A stretch of 64,000 nt of DNA. It comes from an uncultured Hyphomicrobiales bacterium. Its GTDB lineage: Bacteria > Pseudomonadota > Alphaproteobacteria > Rhizobiales > Xanthobacteraceae. The stretch covers positions 1 to 64,000 of the forward strand of contig CAIMEA010000204.1 in the NCBI GenBank assembly GCA_903839845.1, given 5' to 3'. This document shows, piece after piece, positions 40,734 through 47,441 of the stretch. A model generated the notes under the pieces. The model saw only the letters and a list, made by a program, of their open reading frames with translations, made no database searches and was not told the origin of the DNA. Positions within the stretch are counted from its first letter, which is position 1, and every line of letters starts with the position of its first letter. A program made the position numbers and the translations under genes.

Positions 40734-40835
40734 AGGCCAAAAATTGACCCGCCCGGAGTGGGTCTCTCCGAATTTGCCGCTGCCTCGGCGTTTCTTATTG
40801 GCTATAATTCACAGCCGCCGGGCAGGGACCGAATC

Positions 40836-41861
40836 ATGCAAGTTAACCGAATGGCGCGGAACGCCACTCTTGCCGCCGCCTTTGCCGTCACCTTCGCCAC
40901 GGTTCTGGCGCCGGCCGCGCCGGCGCAGACCCTCGACAAGGTGCGTTTCGGGACCAATTGGGTGGCCGAGGCCGAGCATGGTGGCTACTACCAGGCGGTC
41001 GCCGACGGCACCTACAAGAAGTACGGACTGGACGTCACCATCGTCCCGGGCGGACCGAATGTGAACAACCGCCTGCTGTTGCCGGTCGGCAAGCTCGACT
41101 TCTTCATGAGCGCCAATTCGCTGCAAAGCTTCGACGCGGTCGAGCAGAATGTCCCCACCATCGCCGTGGCGGCAAGCTTCCAGAAGGACCCGCAGGTTCT
41201 GCTGGCGCATCCCGGCAAGGCCAAAAAACTCGAAGACCTCAAGAGACTGACGCTGCTCGTGTCCAAGGAGGGCATCGCCAGCTATTTTCAGTGGCTGAAA
41301 GCCGACTACGGTTTCGACGAAGCCAAGGTGAAGCCCTACACCTTCAATCCGCAGCCCTTCCTTGCCGACGAGAATACGGCGATGCAAGGCTATGTCACGT
41401 CCGAGCCCTACGCGATCGAGACGCAGGGGCATTTCAAGCCGGAAATTTTTCTGCTCGCCGACCATGGCTTCAACAGCTATTCGACCCTGATCGAGACGCG
41501 GCGCGAACTGGTCGAGAAGAATCCCGCGATGGTGCAACGCTTCGTCGATGCTTCGGCGATCGGCTGGTACCATTACCTTTATGGCGACAGCCGGCCCGGC
41601 AACGAGCTGATTAAAAAACAAAATCCGGAAATGACCGATGCGCTTCTGGCCTATTCCATCGCCAAGATGAAAGAATATGGCATCGTCGATTCCGGCGACG
41701 CCGAGAAGCTCGGCATAGGCGCCATGACCGACGCGCGCATGAAAAGTTTTTTCGACAAGATGGTGCGGGCCGGCGTTGTCAACAAAGCAATCGATTACCG
41801 CAAGGCTTTCACGCTGCAGTTCGTCAACAAGGCCGTTGGCGTCGACTTGCGGCCTAAATGA
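40836..41861 (+). CDS. ABC transporter substrate-binding protein (NMT1/THI5-like, NitT/TauT type)
   Basis: Signal peptide; KVRFGTNWVAEAEHGGYYQAVADGTYKKYGLDVTIVPGGPNVNNRLLLPVGKLDFFM. Confidence 0.9.
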   Translation: MQVNRMARNATLAAAFAVTFATVLAPAAPAQTLDKVRFGTNWVAEAEHGGYYQAVADGTYKKYGLDVTIVPGGPNVNNRLLLPVGKLDFFMSANSLQSFDAVEQNVPTIAVAASFQKDPQVLLAHPGKAKKLEDLKRLTLLVSKEGIASYFQWLKADYGFDEAKVKPYTFNPQPFLADENTAMQGYVTSEPYAIETQGHFKPEIFLLADHGFNSYSTLIETRRELVEKNPAMVQRFVDASAIGWYHYLYGDSRPGNELIKKQNPEMTDALLAYSIAKMKEYGIVDSGDAEKLGIGAMTDARMKSFFDKMVRAGVVNKAIDYRKAFTLQFVNKAVGVDLRPK

Positions 41862-42613
41862 CCGCGCAAGGCGAGACAATCGTCCGGCTGCGTGACGTCG
41901 GCAAGACGTTCGACAATGGCACCGCCGCGCTCGCCGGACTGACATTCGACGTCGCCGCCGGCGAATTCGTGTCGCTGCTCGGGCCGTCCGGCTGCGGCAA
42001 ATCGACCGCGCTGCGGATTGTCGCGGGCTTAAGCGAAGCGAGCGCCGGCGTCGTCGAGCGACCTAGCGGCTCGCTCGGCTTCGTGTTCCAGGATCCGACC
42101 TTGATGCCGTGGGCGAGCGTCGCGGCGAACGTGTCCTTGCCGTTCAAACTGCGCGGCGCCGATAATGCCCCATCGCGCGCGGCGGTCACGCAGGCTTTGA
42201 CGCGGGTCGGTTTAGGCGAATTTGCCGCCGCCTATCCGCGCCAGCTGTCGGGCGGCATGCGCATGCGCGTCTCGATTGCCCGTGCACTCGTCACCGAGCC
42301 GGCCCTGCTGCTGATGGACGAGCCATTCGCCGCGCTCGATGAGATCACCCGCTTCAAGCTTAACAACGAATTGCTGACATTGTGGCAGGAGCAGTGCTGC
42401 ACGGTGATCTTCGTCACCCATTCGGTGTTCGAGTCGGTCTTCCTGTCGCAACGCATCCTGGTGATGGCGCCGCGGCCGGGCCGTGTGTTCGCCGAAATCG
42501 ACATACCGGCTTCCTATCCGCGCGACGAGCATTTCCGCACCTCGGCTGAATACGCCGATTATTGCCGGCAGGTATCGGAAGCGCTGGCGCAAGCGATGAA
42601 GGTCGGGCCATGA
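41858..42613 (+). CDS. ABC transporter ATP-binding protein (NitT/TauT type)
   Basis: GPSGCGKSTAL, LSGGMRMRVSIARAL, LLMDEPFAALDEITR; ATGA overlap with upstream gene. Confidence 0.96.
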   Translation: MTAQGETIVRLRDVGKTFDNGTAALAGLTFDVAAGEFVSLLGPSGCGKSTALRIVAGLSEASAGVVERPSGSLGFVFQDPTLMPWASVAANVSLPFKLRGADNAPSRAAVTQALTRVGLGEFAAAYPRQLSGGMRMRVSIARALVTEPALLLMDEPFAALDEITRFKLNNELLTLWQEQCCTVIFVTHSVFESVFLSQRILVMAPRPGRVFAEIDIPASYPRDEHFRTSAEYADYCRQVSEALAQAMKVGP

Positions 42614-43404
42614 ATCGCGCGGCAAACGAACGTAGGCTGCGCGTCGTCGTGCCACTGGCGATGCTGGCGCTGACCCTGCTCGCCTGGGATCTGGCGGTGC
42701 GGGGTTTTGCGATTCCGCCCTATGTGTTGCCGTCGCCAGTCGTCGTCGCGACGACCTTGATCGACGATCGCGATCTGCTGTGGCAGTCGTTACTGGTCAC
42801 GCTGACCATTACCGCCGAGGGCTTTCTGCTGGCCGGTCTCGGCGGCGTGGCGCTGGCGGTTGCCTTCAATCGATGGCGGATCGCTGAATTCGCGCTTTAT
42901 CCTTACGCGGTCATCTTGCAGGTGACGCCGGTGGTCGCGGTGGCGCCGCTGCTGCTGATCTATCTGCCGCAACCTTTGGCCGTGCTGGCCTGCGCCTGGA
43001 TCGTCGCGTTCTTTCCGGTGCTGGCCAATACCACGCTGGGTCTGAACTCGGTCGACCGCAACCTCGTCGCGCTGTTCCAGCTTTACAAGGCGTCACGCTG
43101 GCAGGTGCTGTTGCGCCTGAAACTGCCGGCGGCGCTGCCGCAAATGCTGGCGGGATTGCGCATCGCCGGCGGCCTGTCGCTGATCGGCGCGGTGGTGGCG
43201 GAAATCGCCGCGGGCTCGGCCGGCGCCGGTTCGGGCCTCGCCTATCGCATCGCCGAATCCGGATATCGCCTCAACATCGCGCGCATGTTCGCGGCATTGC
43301 TGCTGCTGTCGCTGGCCGGCGTCGCCATCTTTTTCGTGCTATCGGCGGTGTCGCATCTCCTGCTGCGCCGCTGGCACGAAAGCGCGGCGAAGCAGGAGAG
43401 CTAG
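42610..43404 (+). CDS. ABC transporter permease (NitT/TauT type)
   Basis: YKASRWQVLLRLKLPAALPQMLAGLRIAGGLSLIGAVVAEIAAG; ATGA overlap with ATPase gene. Confidence 0.93.
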   Translation: MNRAANERRLRVVVPLAMLALTLLAWDLAVRGFAIPPYVLPSPVVVATTLIDDRDLLWQSLLVTLTITAEGFLLAGLGGVALAVAFNRWRIAEFALYPYAVILQVTPVVAVAPLLLIYLPQPLAVLACAWIVAFFPVLANTTLGLNSVDRNLVALFQLYKASRWQVLLRLKLPAALPQMLAGLRIAGGLSLIGAVVAEIAAGSAGAGSGLAYRIAESGYRLNIARMFAALLLLSLAGVAIFFVLSAVSHLLLRRWHESAAKQES

Positions 43405-43424: not shown

Positions 43425-44750
43425 TCAGAAGGAGGCCTGCGTCATGATTCCCAGCAGGGCCATGACACCGATCACCTCGATCAGGCTGCGGTGAAAGCGG
43501 AACGTCAGCAAGGCCGCGGTCACGGCCAGGACCGTCACGTGGCTGTCGAGCGCGTGTGGATCGAAGGCATACCAGCGCAGCGGTCCCGCATGCATCTCGG
43601 TCACCTTGCCGAACAGCACGTGCAGGGCGAACCACACCGACAGATTGAGGATGACGCCGACCACGGCGGCGGTGATGGCCGCCAGGGCGCCGGCCAGTTT
43701 CCGGTTGCCGCGCAGGTCCTCGATGAATGGCGCGCCGGCGAGGATCCATAATATCGACGGCACGAAGGTGACCCATATCGTCAGCCCGGCGCCAAGCAAA
43801 CCGGCGACAAGCGGCGTGAACGGCGCGGCGTCGCGAAACGCGGCGAGAAAACCGACGAACTGCGTCACCAGAATCAACGGGCCCGGCGTGGTCTCGGCCA
43901 GGCCGAGCGCGTCGACCATTTCCGGCGCGGTCAGCCAGCCATTGGTCTCGACCGCCTGCTGCGCCATGTACGCGAGCACCGCATAGGCGCCGCCGAAGGT
44001 GACGACCGCCAACTTTGAAAAGAACAATCCGATCGAGACCAGCACATGCTGCGGACCCAGCGCGAGCAAGACGACGAGAACGGGCGCCCACCACGTCAAC
44101 AGGCCGACCGGAATGGCAATCGCGGCATGCCGCCAGCGTCCGGCGATCGGCGTGACAACGTTGTCGTTGGCCGGCACGCCGAGGCGCTCCGGATAGGTCT
44201 TGGCGACGAAAAAGCCGACAGCGCCCGCAGCCACGACGATCAGCGGGAAGGGAAGATCGAAAAAAAAGATACCGACGAAGGCGGCGGCCGCGAGTGCCAC
44301 AAGCAATCGGGATTTCAAGGCGCGCTTGCTGATCCGCAGCAAGGCCTCGACGACGATGACCAGCACGGCGGCCTTGATGCCGAATAACGCACCATCGACG
44401 ACGCCGACGCCGCGGCCATAGGCGTAAAGCAGGCTCAAGGCCAGCATCACCACGGCGCCGGGCAGCACGAACAAGATACCGGCGGCCAATCCGCCGCGCA
44501 CGCCATGTAGCAGCCAGCCGGTATAGGTGGCGAGTTGTTGCGCCTCCGGCCCCGGCAGCAGCATGCAGAAGTTCAGCGCGTGCAGATATTGCGCTTCCGG
44601 CACCCATCTCTTCTCGTCGACGACGATGCGATGCATCAAGGCAATCTGGCCGGCCGGCCCGCCGAAGGACAGGCAGCCGATCTTGAACCAGACCTTGAGC
44701 GCTTCGTTGAAGCTCGGCTTCGGCGTGGCTTGTTTGTTGTTGTCCATCAT
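43425..44750 (-). CDS. chrA: Chromate transporter, long-chain ChrA
   Basis: Two homologous halves; FKIGCLSFGGPAGQIALMHR and FSKLAVVTFGGAYAVLAYMAQQAVE; start codon overlaps chrB stop (TAATG). Confidence 0.93.
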   Translation of the reverse strand: MMDNNKQATPKPSFNEALKVWFKIGCLSFGGPAGQIALMHRIVVDEKRWVPEAQYLHALNFCMLLPGPEAQQLATYTGWLLHGVRGGLAAGILFVLPGAVVMLALSLLYAYGRGVGVVDGALFGIKAAVLVIVVEALLRISKRALKSRLLVALAAAAFVGIFFFDLPFPLIVVAAGAVGFFVAKTYPERLGVPANDNVVTPIAGRWRHAAIAIPVGLLTWWAPVLVVLLALGPQHVLVSIGLFFSKLAVVTFGGAYAVLAYMAQQAVETNGWLTAPEMVDALGLAETTPGPLILVTQFVGFLAAFRDAAPFTPLVAGLLGAGLTIWVTFVPSILWILAGAPFIEDLRGNRKLAGALAAITAAVVGVILNLSVWFALHVLFGKVTEMHAGPLRWYAFDPHALDSHVTVLAVTAALLTFRFHRSLIEVIGVMALLGIMTQASF

Positions 44751-45574
44751 TACAGCGCCTTCGCTGGCCAATTGTGCTTCTCGTCGGCGGCAAAGCGCAG
44801 CCCGGCGAACAGCGCATCATAGATGACAAAGCCCTGCTTTAGCAGGCCATGGTCGTCGTCACCGGCCAGAGCCGAAAGGCCAAGCGACACCGCGTGCAGG
44901 CCGGCGGCTTCCGGCGCAAGGTCAAGCCGTGCCGTGTCGGCGCCGCGCACGATCAAGGCCAGCCGGGCGAGCGACGGCTCGCTCTCGATCCCGAACAGCT
45001 TCAACAACGTATCGAAACTGCAGCGCCCGCCCTCATGCGAAATCTCGACGCCTTCGATATCGAACGGGATCGCGCCGAATTCGCGCGCGGCGTCGGCGAC
45101 ATAGGCCGGATCGACGAACAGGAATTTGGCGTCGGCATCGATGAAGCGGCTGATCAGCCACGGGCAGGCGATGCGGTCGATCTTCGGCCGCCGTCGTGTG
45201 ATCCAGCGGCTCGGCCGCTGCGGCATGATGCGGTCGGCTGTCGCGCGGTCGATGAGCGGCAGCTTGGCCTCCAGCCAGGCGCCCTGGCCGCCGGCGAGCA
45301 TCGTGGCGTTATAGCCGTCGGCGCGCAGTTCGGCGGTGATGGTCTGGCTGAGTTCTTTGCCGGCCTTGCAGGCGATGATGATCGGCCGGGCGCGGTCGAG
45401 CGTATCGATCCAACTGGCCAGCGCGGTCGGCTCGCGCCAGACGGAGCCCGGCAGCAATCCGGCGACGGATTCGTAGATGTCGCGGCGGCGCACGTCGATG
45501 AGTTGCGGCGCGCGCGGCGTTGCCATCGCGTGCCAGAGTTCTAAGGGTGAGATCGAGAAGCTTTGCGCAAGCAT
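44750..45574 (-). CDS. chrB: ChrB-type chromate resistance protein with N-terminal rhodanese domain
   Basis: Rhodanese LIDVRRRDIYESVAGLLPGSVW...IIACKAGKELS; ChrB C-terminal IDRIACPWLISRFIDADAKFLFVDP...FDIEGVEISHEGGRCSFDTLL. Confidence 0.9.
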   Translation of the reverse strand: MLAQSFSISPLELWHAMATPRAPQLIDVRRRDIYESVAGLLPGSVWREPTALASWIDTLDRARPIIIACKAGKELSQTITAELRADGYNATMLAGGQGAWLEAKLPLIDRATADRIMPQRPSRWITRRRPKIDRIACPWLISRFIDADAKFLFVDPAYVADAAREFGAIPFDIEGVEISHEGGRCSFDTLLKLFGIESEPSLARLALIVRGADTARLDLAPEAAGLHAVSLGLSALAGDDDHGLLKQGFVIYDALFAGLRFAADEKHNWPAKAL

Positions 45575-45653
45575 AAGCCCCCTCCATTCATGAAGGAGAC
45601 GGTGCTTGGGCTGTGAAGCCTTCAAAGCGCGGGGCGACCGCCGCTGGCCCCGC
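45575..45653 (-). ncRNA. Structured 5' leader of chrB (candidate cis-regulatory RNA)
   Basis: GCGGGGC/GCCCCGC 7-bp hairpin at predicted TSS, GGCU-UCAC-AGCC hairpin, GCCC..CUCC/GGAG.GGGC helix sequestering GGAGG SD. Confidence 0.7.
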
Positions 45654-45659
45654 TGAAAA

Positions 45660-45688
45660 ATTCTAACGCAGTGTGTCGTCACAGGCAA
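45660..45688 (-). promoter_or_regulatory. chrB promoter
   Basis: TTGCCT-N17-TAGAAT on minus strand. Confidence 0.6.
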
Positions 45689-45691
45689 GCG

Positions 45692-46432
45692 TTAGTGAAA
45701 GAACGCCGGAGCGACCAGCGACACGCCGGATATCAGCAGCAAAACGAGAATGGCTTTGCGGAAGGCCGCGTCATCGAGCCTGCCGTAGAGCCTGACGCCG
45801 AGCCACAGGCCGAGCAACAGCGCCGGCAGGCCCATGACGAAGAGTTTGACGATATCCATGTTGAACAGGTGGCCCGCGGCCGCGAATGTCAGCGTCGCCA
45901 TCGTCATGGTGAAGAACAGCACGGGCTGAAACACGGCGCGCTGCGCGTCCTTCGCGCCGCCGCCGAGTTGCACCCAGATCGTGCTGATGACGCCGCCCAG
46001 CCCGGTGAGACCGCCGAGCAGGCCGTTGAGAACGCCAATGCCGCCATCCAGTGCCGGATTGGACTTGATGGGCGTCAATGTCGGCCGCGCCAGATTATAG
46101 GTGCTGTACGCGATCAGCAGGATGCCGACGCCGATGCGCAGATGCGCGGGATTTAGATACGTCACCAGATAAGCGCCGAGCGGCACGCCGATCGCGCCGC
46201 CGATCACGAAGGGCAGGATTCGCCGCCACTGCAAGGCGTGGCGGACTTTCCAGACGCCATAGGCCTGATTGACGATGCCATAGGCCGCGATCAGCACCGC
46301 CGTTTGCAGCGGCGTGAGAATTTGCAACCAGATGCCCGAGACGACCAGCCCGGCGGCGAAGCCGGTCAAGCCGCTGGTGAAGCCGCCAAGAAATGTCGCG
46401 AGAAAAAAAAGCCCGATTACCATGCCATCCAT
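45692..46432 (-). CDS. TauE/SafE (DUF81) family sulfite exporter-like protein, copy A
   Basis: MDGMVIGLFFLATFLGGFTSGLTGFAAGLVVSGIWLQILTPLQTAVLIAAYG; multi-TM. Confidence 0.9.
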   Translation of the reverse strand: MDGMVIGLFFLATFLGGFTSGLTGFAAGLVVSGIWLQILTPLQTAVLIAAYGIVNQAYGVWKVRHALQWRRILPFVIGGAIGVPLGAYLVTYLNPAHLRIGVGILLIAYSTYNLARPTLTPIKSNPALDGGIGVLNGLLGGLTGLGGVISTIWVQLGGGAKDAQRAVFQPVLFFTMTMATLTFAAAGHLFNMDIVKLFVMGLPALLLGLWLGVRLYGRLDDAAFRKAILVLLLISGVSLVAPAFFH

Positions 46433-46508
46433 AGGTCGCTCCAAAGCGGAAGTGACCAGCGCTTGGATGGAGGAGGACCATCTGGAGGGGAGGCTGTTTG
46501 ATCCCCTG
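46433..46508 (-). ncRNA. Structured 5' leader of tauE copy A (candidate cis-regulatory RNA)
   Basis: AGGGGA-N10-UCCCCU hairpin; GAUGG/CCAUC hairpin; CCAUCC-AAGCGCU-GGUC...GACC-UAU-GGAUGG helix covering the start codon; shared with copy B. Confidence 0.7.
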
Positions 46509-46515
46509 CATGACG

Positions 46516-46542
46516 ACTATACCGGAATGTCCGGCCATCTCA
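46516..46542 (-). promoter_or_regulatory. tauE-A promoter
   Basis: TTGAGA-N16-TATAGT on minus strand. Confidence 0.55.
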
Positions 46543-46559
46543 AGATGGCCGATGAAGGG

Positions 46560-47300
46560 TCAGCCAAACATCGACATCGGCACGATCAGAACGACCCCCG
46601 ACAGCAGCAACAGATAAAGAATGACCTTGCGAAAAGCCATCTCGTCGAGATGGCCGTACAGCTTCAAGCCCACCCAGACGCCAGCGGCGAGAAGCGGCAA
46701 GCCCATGGCATAAATCTTGAGGAGTGCGATGGTGATCGTGCCGTTCACCGTCAAGGATGTGGCCGTCAGAATGAACGCGGCCAGGATTACCGGCTGGAAG
46801 ATCGCCCGCTGTTCGTCCTTTCGCCAGCCGCGCAATTGGCACCAGATGGTGATGATCGGACCGGCGAGTCCCGTCATGCCGCCGAGAATGCCGTTGATGA
46901 TGCCAATACCGAAATCGGCGCGGATGTCGGTTCGAATCGTATGCACTGTCGGCCGCAGCAGGAAGAAGCTGCTGTAGGCGACGAGCAGGACACCAACGGC
47001 GGTGCGCAGGTAATCCGGGTTGGTGAAGGTAAGCAGCGCGGCGCCGAGCGGAACCCCGATGACGCCGCCGGCGATGAACGGCGCTACTGTGCGCCAGTTC
47101 AGCGCATGCCGCAGCTTCCAGATGCTGTAGGTCTGGACCAAAAGACCGTAACCGACGATGAGAGCCGCGGTCTGCGCCGGGGTGAGGATGTGCAGCCAGA
47201 TGCCGGAGACCACCAGGCCCATGGCAAATCCGGCCAGCCCAGAAACGATGCCGCCAAAGAACACCGAAAACAGGAAAAGCGCCAGCGTCAGGCCATCCAT
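46560..47300 (-). CDS. TauE/SafE (DUF81) family sulfite exporter-like protein, copy B
   Basis: MDGLTLALFLFSVFFGGIVSGLAGFAMGLVVSGIWLHILTPAQTAALIVGYG; clear paralogue of copy A. Confidence 0.9.
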   Translation of the reverse strand: MDGLTLALFLFSVFFGGIVSGLAGFAMGLVVSGIWLHILTPAQTAALIVGYGLLVQTYSIWKLRHALNWRTVAPFIAGGVIGVPLGAALLTFTNPDYLRTAVGVLLVAYSSFFLLRPTVHTIRTDIRADFGIGIINGILGGMTGLAGPIITIWCQLRGWRKDEQRAIFQPVILAAFILTATSLTVNGTITIALLKIYAMGLPLLAAGVWVGLKLYGHLDEMAFRKVILYLLLLSGVVLIVPMSMFG

Positions 47301-47391
47301 AGGTCGCCCCGTAAGATAGACGTGACCAGCGCTTGGATGCGACCTTTGGACGGATGGCTGCCATCGCAAGGGGAGGCTGCTATTTCCCCTA
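47301..47391 (-). ncRNA. Structured 5' leader of tauE copy B (candidate cis-regulatory RNA)
   Basis: AGGGGA-N10-UCCCCU hairpin, GAUGG-cag-CCAUC hairpin, CAUCCAAGCGCUGGUCAC block and GCGACCUAUGGAUGG, as in copy A. Confidence 0.7.
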
Positions 47392-47441
47392 CAATCGGAT
47401 TATACCATCACTCAAGCGAAAACAAACGTGGGGAAGCGCCT

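Follow-up and report, generated by a model that had tools for sequence, protein, structure and literature searches.

The RNA families chrB-a (RF03078) and chrB-b (RF03086) are catalogued in Rfam, where their function is left unexplained, and no experimental work on chrB RNA was found in the open-access literature. A NAR paper of 2017 is reportedly the primary source for both. The fluoride (crcB) riboswitch is a short leader for anion detoxification built on a pseudoknot; the leaders described here resemble it in their working only, have no Rfam match to crcB and are not claimed as members. The chrB RNA is named in the CaCoFold study as a case in which covariation revealed a new pseudoknot helix, while the register, the regulon and a translation clamp are not part of the text found of that study (PMC7657543). 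The chromate operon of plasmid pMOL28 in Cupriavidus metallidurans CH34 has the gene order chrB, chrA, SOD, chrE, a ChrB-domain gene, two small genes, MFS, DUF1259 and YncE. The genes from chrO to chrZ are reported to be induced by chromate (PMC2864759). The chrB, chrA, SOD, MFS, DUF1259 and YncE genes of this operon are homologues of leader-bearing genes, but in CH34 they form a single operon that adjoins the protein regulator gene chrI, and no such leader RNA was found in it.

The window, by which is meant the whole 64 kb stretch of DNA analysed, carries chrA, chrB and two tauE genes in a row on the minus strand, with one leader each before chrB and the two tauE genes (Table 1). The leaders and the genes lying between them extend over 45575-47404. 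With cmscan and Rfam 15, at gathering cut-offs of 36.5 bits for chrB-b and 43.9 bits for chrB-a, the window gave two matches above cut-off, both to chrB-b and corresponding to the two tauE leaders. These pass over the full chrB-b model, with an identical layout of P1, P2, CCAAG and 3' strand; the Infernal-aligned model stops before the ribosome binding site and thereby leaves the clamp helices P3 and P4 outside. The chrB leader was matched by both models at a permissive threshold (chrB-b E 0.0012), reaching the gathering cut-off of neither, and it is an intermediate between the two types. The original prediction had taken the system to be undescribed, which does not hold because the two Rfam families cover it. 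No chrB-b or chrB-a score above 19 bits, and no further credible copy, was found in the rest of the organism's own genome, the weak extra matches (18.9 bits or less) being discarded as leaders. Ten TauE genes are present in this genome and only the two in the array have a leader match. An ABC transporter set (substrate-binding protein, ATPase and permease) lies at 40758-43404 on the plus strand, convergent with chrA; it is kin to the sulfonate/taurine/nitrate families, and the leader was not found there.

Table 1. Positions in the window of the genes, leader cores, helices and promoter of the chr-tauE array
Feature	Position	Strand	Remarks
chrA, chromate efflux transporter (TIGR00937)	43425..44771	-	overlaps chrB end
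chrB, rhodanese PF00581 + ChrB_C PF09828 fusion	44750..45574	-	
chrB SD-clamping hairpin CUCCUUCA/UGAAUGGAG + start codon	45572..45604	-	MFE -20.4, z -3.6
chrB leader core, intermediate chrB-b/chrB-a	45599..45652	-	chrB-b 29.4, chrB-a 26.9 bits; R1 22.7 bits, E 5e-5
chrB leader P1 GCGGGGC/GCCCCGC, P2 GGCU/AGCC	within 45599..45652	-	
chrB leader pseudoknot, GCGGU with ACCGU	45637-45641 with 45599-45603	-	
tauE-A gene (PF01925)	45692..46432	-	start ATGGATGG
tauE-A clamp, P4 CAUCCA/UGGAUG around P3 GGUC/GACC	46427..46469	-	holds start codon; MFE -16.1 kcal/mol, z -2.2; register test
tauE-A leader core, chrB-b RNA (P1, P2, CCAAG, pseudoknot strand)	46456..46507	-	RF03086 49.6 bits; model R1 43.6 bits
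tauE-A P2 hairpin GAUGG...CCAUC	46466..46482	-	strands 46478-46482 / 46466-46470
tauE-A pseudoknot 5' strand ACAGC, in P1 loop	46493..46497	-	CAGC pairs with GCUG in 46456-46460
tauE-A P1 5' strand AGGGGA	46502..46507	-	pairs with UCCCCU 46486-46491
tauE-A sigma-70-like promoter TTGAGA-16-TATAGT	46516..46543	-	fits family-wide promoter profile
tauE-B gene (PF01925)	46560..47300	-	start ATGGATGG
tauE-B clamp, CAUCCA/UGGAUG around GGUC/GACC	47295..47337	-	MFE -14.6 kcal/mol, z -1.0
tauE-B leader core, chrB-b RNA	47326..47390	-	RF03086 36.9 bits; model R1 34.2 bits
tauE-B pseudoknot 5' strand GCAGC	47376..47380	-	CAGC pairs with GCUG in 47326-47330

A unified covariance model, R1, was built from both leader types, with tauE-A as the only leader of the window in its seed. 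Exactly the three window leaders were matched by R1 in the 64 kb (E 3e-11 to 5e-5), tauE-B (E 2e-8) and chrB thus being found from outside the seed, in agreement with the prediction that chrB and the two tauE genes follow a single leader logic. Among 398 genomes of the order, chrB-b was above cut-off in 25 and chrB-a in 92; 19 of the 166 distinct loci in the order were matched by both models. Within the family R1 has matches in 254 of 399 genomes, and among 256 genomes sampled across the class in 27; of the genomes sampled in the phylum outside this class, a single one was matched. In one genome outside the class (L271, G1155) a chrB-a-like leader stands with a chr-type gene, possibly as a result of horizontal transfer. 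In a test set beforehand, a model trained solely on 16 tauE leaders recovered seven chrB-b-type chrA/chrB leaders at E < 1e-4 from 78 chr loci. It also picked up a few chrB-a leaders with weak scores, yet missed the one before chrB in the window; the link between the three leaders therefore rests on the intermediates and on the shared covarying structure.

The elements common to both types are P1 (GGGG/CCCC), a strand in the P1 loop, P2, (C)CAAG, one spacer base and a second strand. The pseudoknot joins the P1 loop strand, which in both types lies directly 5' of one C and then the P1 3' strand, to the strand just 3' of (C)CAAG, with P2 in between. It comprises 4-5 pairs in each of the three window leaders, and at least four pairs are possible in 155 of 158 leaders when one register step is allowed. 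The strands are GCGAU/AUCGC in chrB-a as against GCAGN/NCUGC in chrB-b, and the variants observed are GCGAU/AUCGC, GCGAA/UUCGC, GCAGA/UCUGC, GCAGU/ACUGC, GCAGC/GCUGC, GCGGC/GCCGC, GCGGU/ACCGC and GCAAC/GUUGU. P2 varies as GGC/GCC, GAC/GUC, GAU/AUC and AAU/AUU. The conserved unpaired bases are AAG, the A 5' of P2 and the C 5' of the P1 3' strand. The Rfam structure line of chrB-a has P1 and the SD hairpin, which is P3, but not P2; P1, the pseudoknot with the P1 loop and the following strand are the same in this family, which is without P4.

The alignment of all leaders by MAFFT put P1 in the wrong place and the seeds were therefore restricted to sequences of equal loop length. In 24 seed sequences of both types, 98.2% of the cells in the three helices are paired, with a covariation of 0.577 compared to 0.224 in shuffles, and on a model without the pseudoknot 117 distinct sequences gave 97.2% paired and a covariation of 0.474 compared to 0.198, shuffle statistics that overstate independence because the sequences are related. 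Slid registers in the 24-sequence alignment gave a covariation of at most 0.13. On the basis of this shared covarying structure chrB-a and chrB-b are regarded as one RNA class.

The original prediction had drawn a G-rich hairpin near the predicted +1 with CAGC in its loop, a short second hairpin, and an outer helix in which CC-AAGC leads to pairing at the SD/AUG. The first hairpin is found in all three leaders and the second corresponds to P2, which is supported by covariation in both the 24 seed and the 117 distinct sequences. CAGC is found in the loops of the two tauE leaders, where it is predicted to be functional as part of the pseudoknot strand; as an element common to all three it was rejected, the chrB leader having GCGGU as its pseudoknot strand and its CAGC being coincidental. 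The outer helix is contained in the minimum free energy structures of both tauE leaders. In the chrB leader the AGCCC/GGGCU pairing is possible, yet the minimum free energy structure favours CAAGCA/UGCUUG around a strong SD hairpin. Because the minimum free energy structure of tauE-A coincides exactly with the drawn outer helix, asymmetric loop included, what had been seen was the predicted OFF fold; its alternative is the pseudoknot fold, for which P2 and the second strand are used. Much of the covariation lies in the pseudoknot, and this was missing from the drawing.

The position of the transcript start is suggested by the promoter pattern. Two boxes recur upstream of P1 in 330 related leaders, an AT-rich hexamer starting at a distance of 14 nt and a TTG box at 37 nt. 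From this -35/-10 pattern the start is predicted at or next to P1. The three leaders of the window agree with these family-wide positions, a -10-like hexamer starting 13-14 nt 5' of the first hairpin in each.

Downstream of the core, the leaders can pair with the translation start in one or two ways. In chrB-a the 5' strand of P3 begins 2 nt inside the pseudoknot strand and its partner lies just upstream of the AUG; all six pairs are found in 137 of 154 leaders, with the compensatory variants GCAUCC/GGAUGC, GCUUCC/GGAAGC and GCGUUC/GAACGC. In chrB-b, pairing with the ribosome-site region is likewise best when it starts 2 nt within the pseudoknot strand (Z 14.2 relative to permuted partners) and drops off to either side. 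P4 is formed in chrB-b between the 3' strand of P2 (RYCC, the four bases before AAG) and the G of AUG together with codon 2, as GUCC/GGAC or GGAU, AUCC/GGAU and GCCC/GGGC. All four pairs are present in 85 of 176 chrB-b leaders and in five or fewer at any other register tested; a register with codon 2 alone gave no signal, the correct one taking in the G of AUG. Covariation of P4 counted by unique strand pairs was not significant in the first 44 sequences (p 0.37), and the signal is clear only with the 176 leaders. The exchange of U-A and C-G at the second pair (p 3.5e-8 in all leaders, 0.0017 within chr genes) is indicative, the sequences being related. P4 is imperfect in the chrB leader of the window and as a universal feature it was rejected, being absent from chrB-a (mean 1.2 pairs). 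Folding of the clamp region is more stable than that of dinucleotide shuffles (mean z from -1.6 to -3.5), and the downstream coding control is near 0.

The pairing of P4 is reflected in the coding sequence. Base 43, the partner of the G of AUG, is a C in 171 of 176 chrB-b leaders and variable in chrB-a, and a G follows the AUG in only 8 of 154 chrB-a genes. The second codon of leader-bearing genes encodes Asp in 42 of 61 TauE, 14 of 17 Cj0069, 8 of 9 lectin-like and 7 of 10 MFS genes. Asp as the second residue of these unrelated proteins is apparently an RNA-level constraint on codon 2.

The core fold and the clamp are predicted to compete because both need the same bases, i.e. the end of the pseudoknot strand for P3 and the 3' strand of P2 for P4, and the mutually exclusive pairing at the translation start proposed earlier is in this sense backed by the comparison. 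The overlap between P3 and the pseudoknot is just 1-3 bases and some coexistence is therefore possible. In tauE-A the overlap with P3 amounts to a single pseudoknot pair; there it is chiefly P2 and P4 that are in conflict.

The reading that we consider probable is that each leader is a chrB RNA that sits at the 5' end of the transcript and regulates translation in cis, most likely as a riboswitch, namely an ON switch with chromate or a related oxyanion as its signal. P1 would begin near the transcript start, its loop pairing 3' of (C)CAAG with P2 between. In the OFF state the downstream half of the second strand (the final 2-3 pseudoknot bases and the four that follow) would pair with the ribosome-site region as P3, and P4 in chrB-b would tie the 3' strand of P2 to codon 2 and the G of AUG before it. 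In the ON state a ligand would stabilise the fold of pseudoknot and P2, so that the clamp is released and the gene can be translated. A translational ON switch is the best model for these structures. Comparison shows the common structure, the competing helices, the position of the promoter and the associated genes; the direction of the switch and the binding of a ligand by the RNA are inferred.

The signal is suggested by the regulon. The leader is found before ChrB and/or ChrA at most loci. As anticipated by the original prediction, the regulon goes beyond the genes of the window and includes, besides TauE, the Cj0069 family (NF033816, DUF6815), MFS, DUF1259, lectin-like, Fe-SOD, YncE-like and ornithine-cyclodeaminase family genes. 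Ornithine cyclodeaminase/mu-crystallin genes have a chrB-b leader at four loci (L027, L032, L236 and L237), and chrB-a leaders precede genes for an ABC-transporter ATPase and small PepSY-like proteins at three (L322 in G708, L323 in G663 and L341 in G685). The Methylobacterium plasmid pMRE25 (L367) has a PepSY gene beside a chr gene. Compared with ChrC, ChrP, ChrY and ChrZ of CH34 pMOL28, the leader-bearing homologues have identities of 68% (SOD), 53-56% (MFS), about 32-37% (DUF1259) and 25% (YncE-like). In Arthrobacter FB24 the DUF1259 homologue chrL belongs to a chromate-induced cluster, on most genes of which lead, arsenate and peroxide have little or no effect (PMC2751784), and deletion of chrL lowers resistance, as cited in PMC7060636. 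The chr operon of Cupriavidus STM 6070 has a lectin-domain gene, cep, as the neighbour of chrL (PMC7060636). Methylobacterium plasmids have Cj0069, DUF1259, a lectin-like gene and chrA/chrB within a short distance of one another, and a plasmid of Pannonibacter from chromium slag has Cj0069, a TauE and chrA/chrB in the same way. The latter co-occurrence was set aside as proof because the TauE proteins of the window are not close to that TauE (no match at 1e-3).

Judging from the leader-bearing genes, a plausible signal is chromate, a related oxyanion or something produced on its entry, in line with the oxyanion-related signal of the original prediction. The same genes bear on the reading, which we hold to be unlikely, that the riboswitch responds to an ordinary sulfur metabolite or to sulfate or sulfite, with chr and tauE serving sulfur-oxyanion homeostasis. 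The family annotation of TauE agrees with a sulfur signal. Many leader hosts are ordinary soil and nodule bacteria in which an encounter with chromate is not known, which counts against chromate. However, SOD, MFS, DUF1259, YncE and ChrA match the chromate-induced pMOL28 set, and no sulfur-assimilation gene was found among the genes downstream of the leaders.

Little credence is given to a protein-binding site, at which ChrB or another protein would bind the hairpins and autoregulate translation or transcription. The leader is most frequent before chrB/chrA, and ChrB of Ochrobactrum tritici is known to act as a chromate-responsive transcriptional regulator (PMC3817168). The window ChrB is a rhodanese-ChrB_C fusion, not of the CH34 regulator type (36.6% identity over 134 aa only), and ChrB as the only effector is unlikely because, of 24 genomes with a leader match that were tested, 18 have no ChrB_C domain, several of them complete and a few of the matches weak. 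A ligand-free RBS hairpin, constitutive or temperature-sensitive and similar between genes through duplication of leader and gene, is very improbable, for although the clamp is stable by itself and the leaders that occur in tandem in the genus suggest duplication events, the pseudoknot, which a bare hairpin does not need, covaries strongly over many genera and unrelated genes, and the three unpaired elements named above (AAG, the A next to P2 and the C next to the P1 3' strand) are conserved.

The array itself is conserved. Leader matches were found at a loose threshold in 41 of 44 genomes of the genus of the window; the relatives of the locus that bear a name belong to Pseudolabrys and allied Rhizobiales. 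The order tauE(-tauE)-chrB with a leader per gene recurs in most arrays fetched, and G684, G598 and G631, for example, share the pair of tauE genes seen in the window. In several genomes a chrB-type leader without a gene lies 61-154 nt upstream of the tauE leader (L301 1153-1317, L302 285-457, L326 222-389, L303 on the minus strand, L324, L319, L320, L300 and L288). These tandem leaders may be relics of an insertion of tauE between the leader of chrB and chrB, or tandem switches.

Returning to the oxyanion switch, the observations can be joined in a more tentative proposal, which is possible but somewhat less likely true than not: chrB-a and chrB-b would be one pseudoknot riboswitch class, sensing chromate or a related oxyanion, that opens a clamp on the start codon, TauE, MFS, Cj0069-family and lectin-like proteins would begin with Met-Asp for the sake of the RNA, and the genes would be the scattered units of a chromate-induced set that Cupriavidus holds in one operon. 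The chrB RNAs, for which no reported function was found, now have a joined structure, an exclusive clamp and a regulon, amounting to a concrete hypothesis with a short list of ligands. If true, the leaders would be natural sensors of a toxic oxyanion made of RNA, which is unusual, and would be useful as chromate biosensors, and the TauE, Cj0069-family and lectin-like genes would become candidates for chromate resistance.
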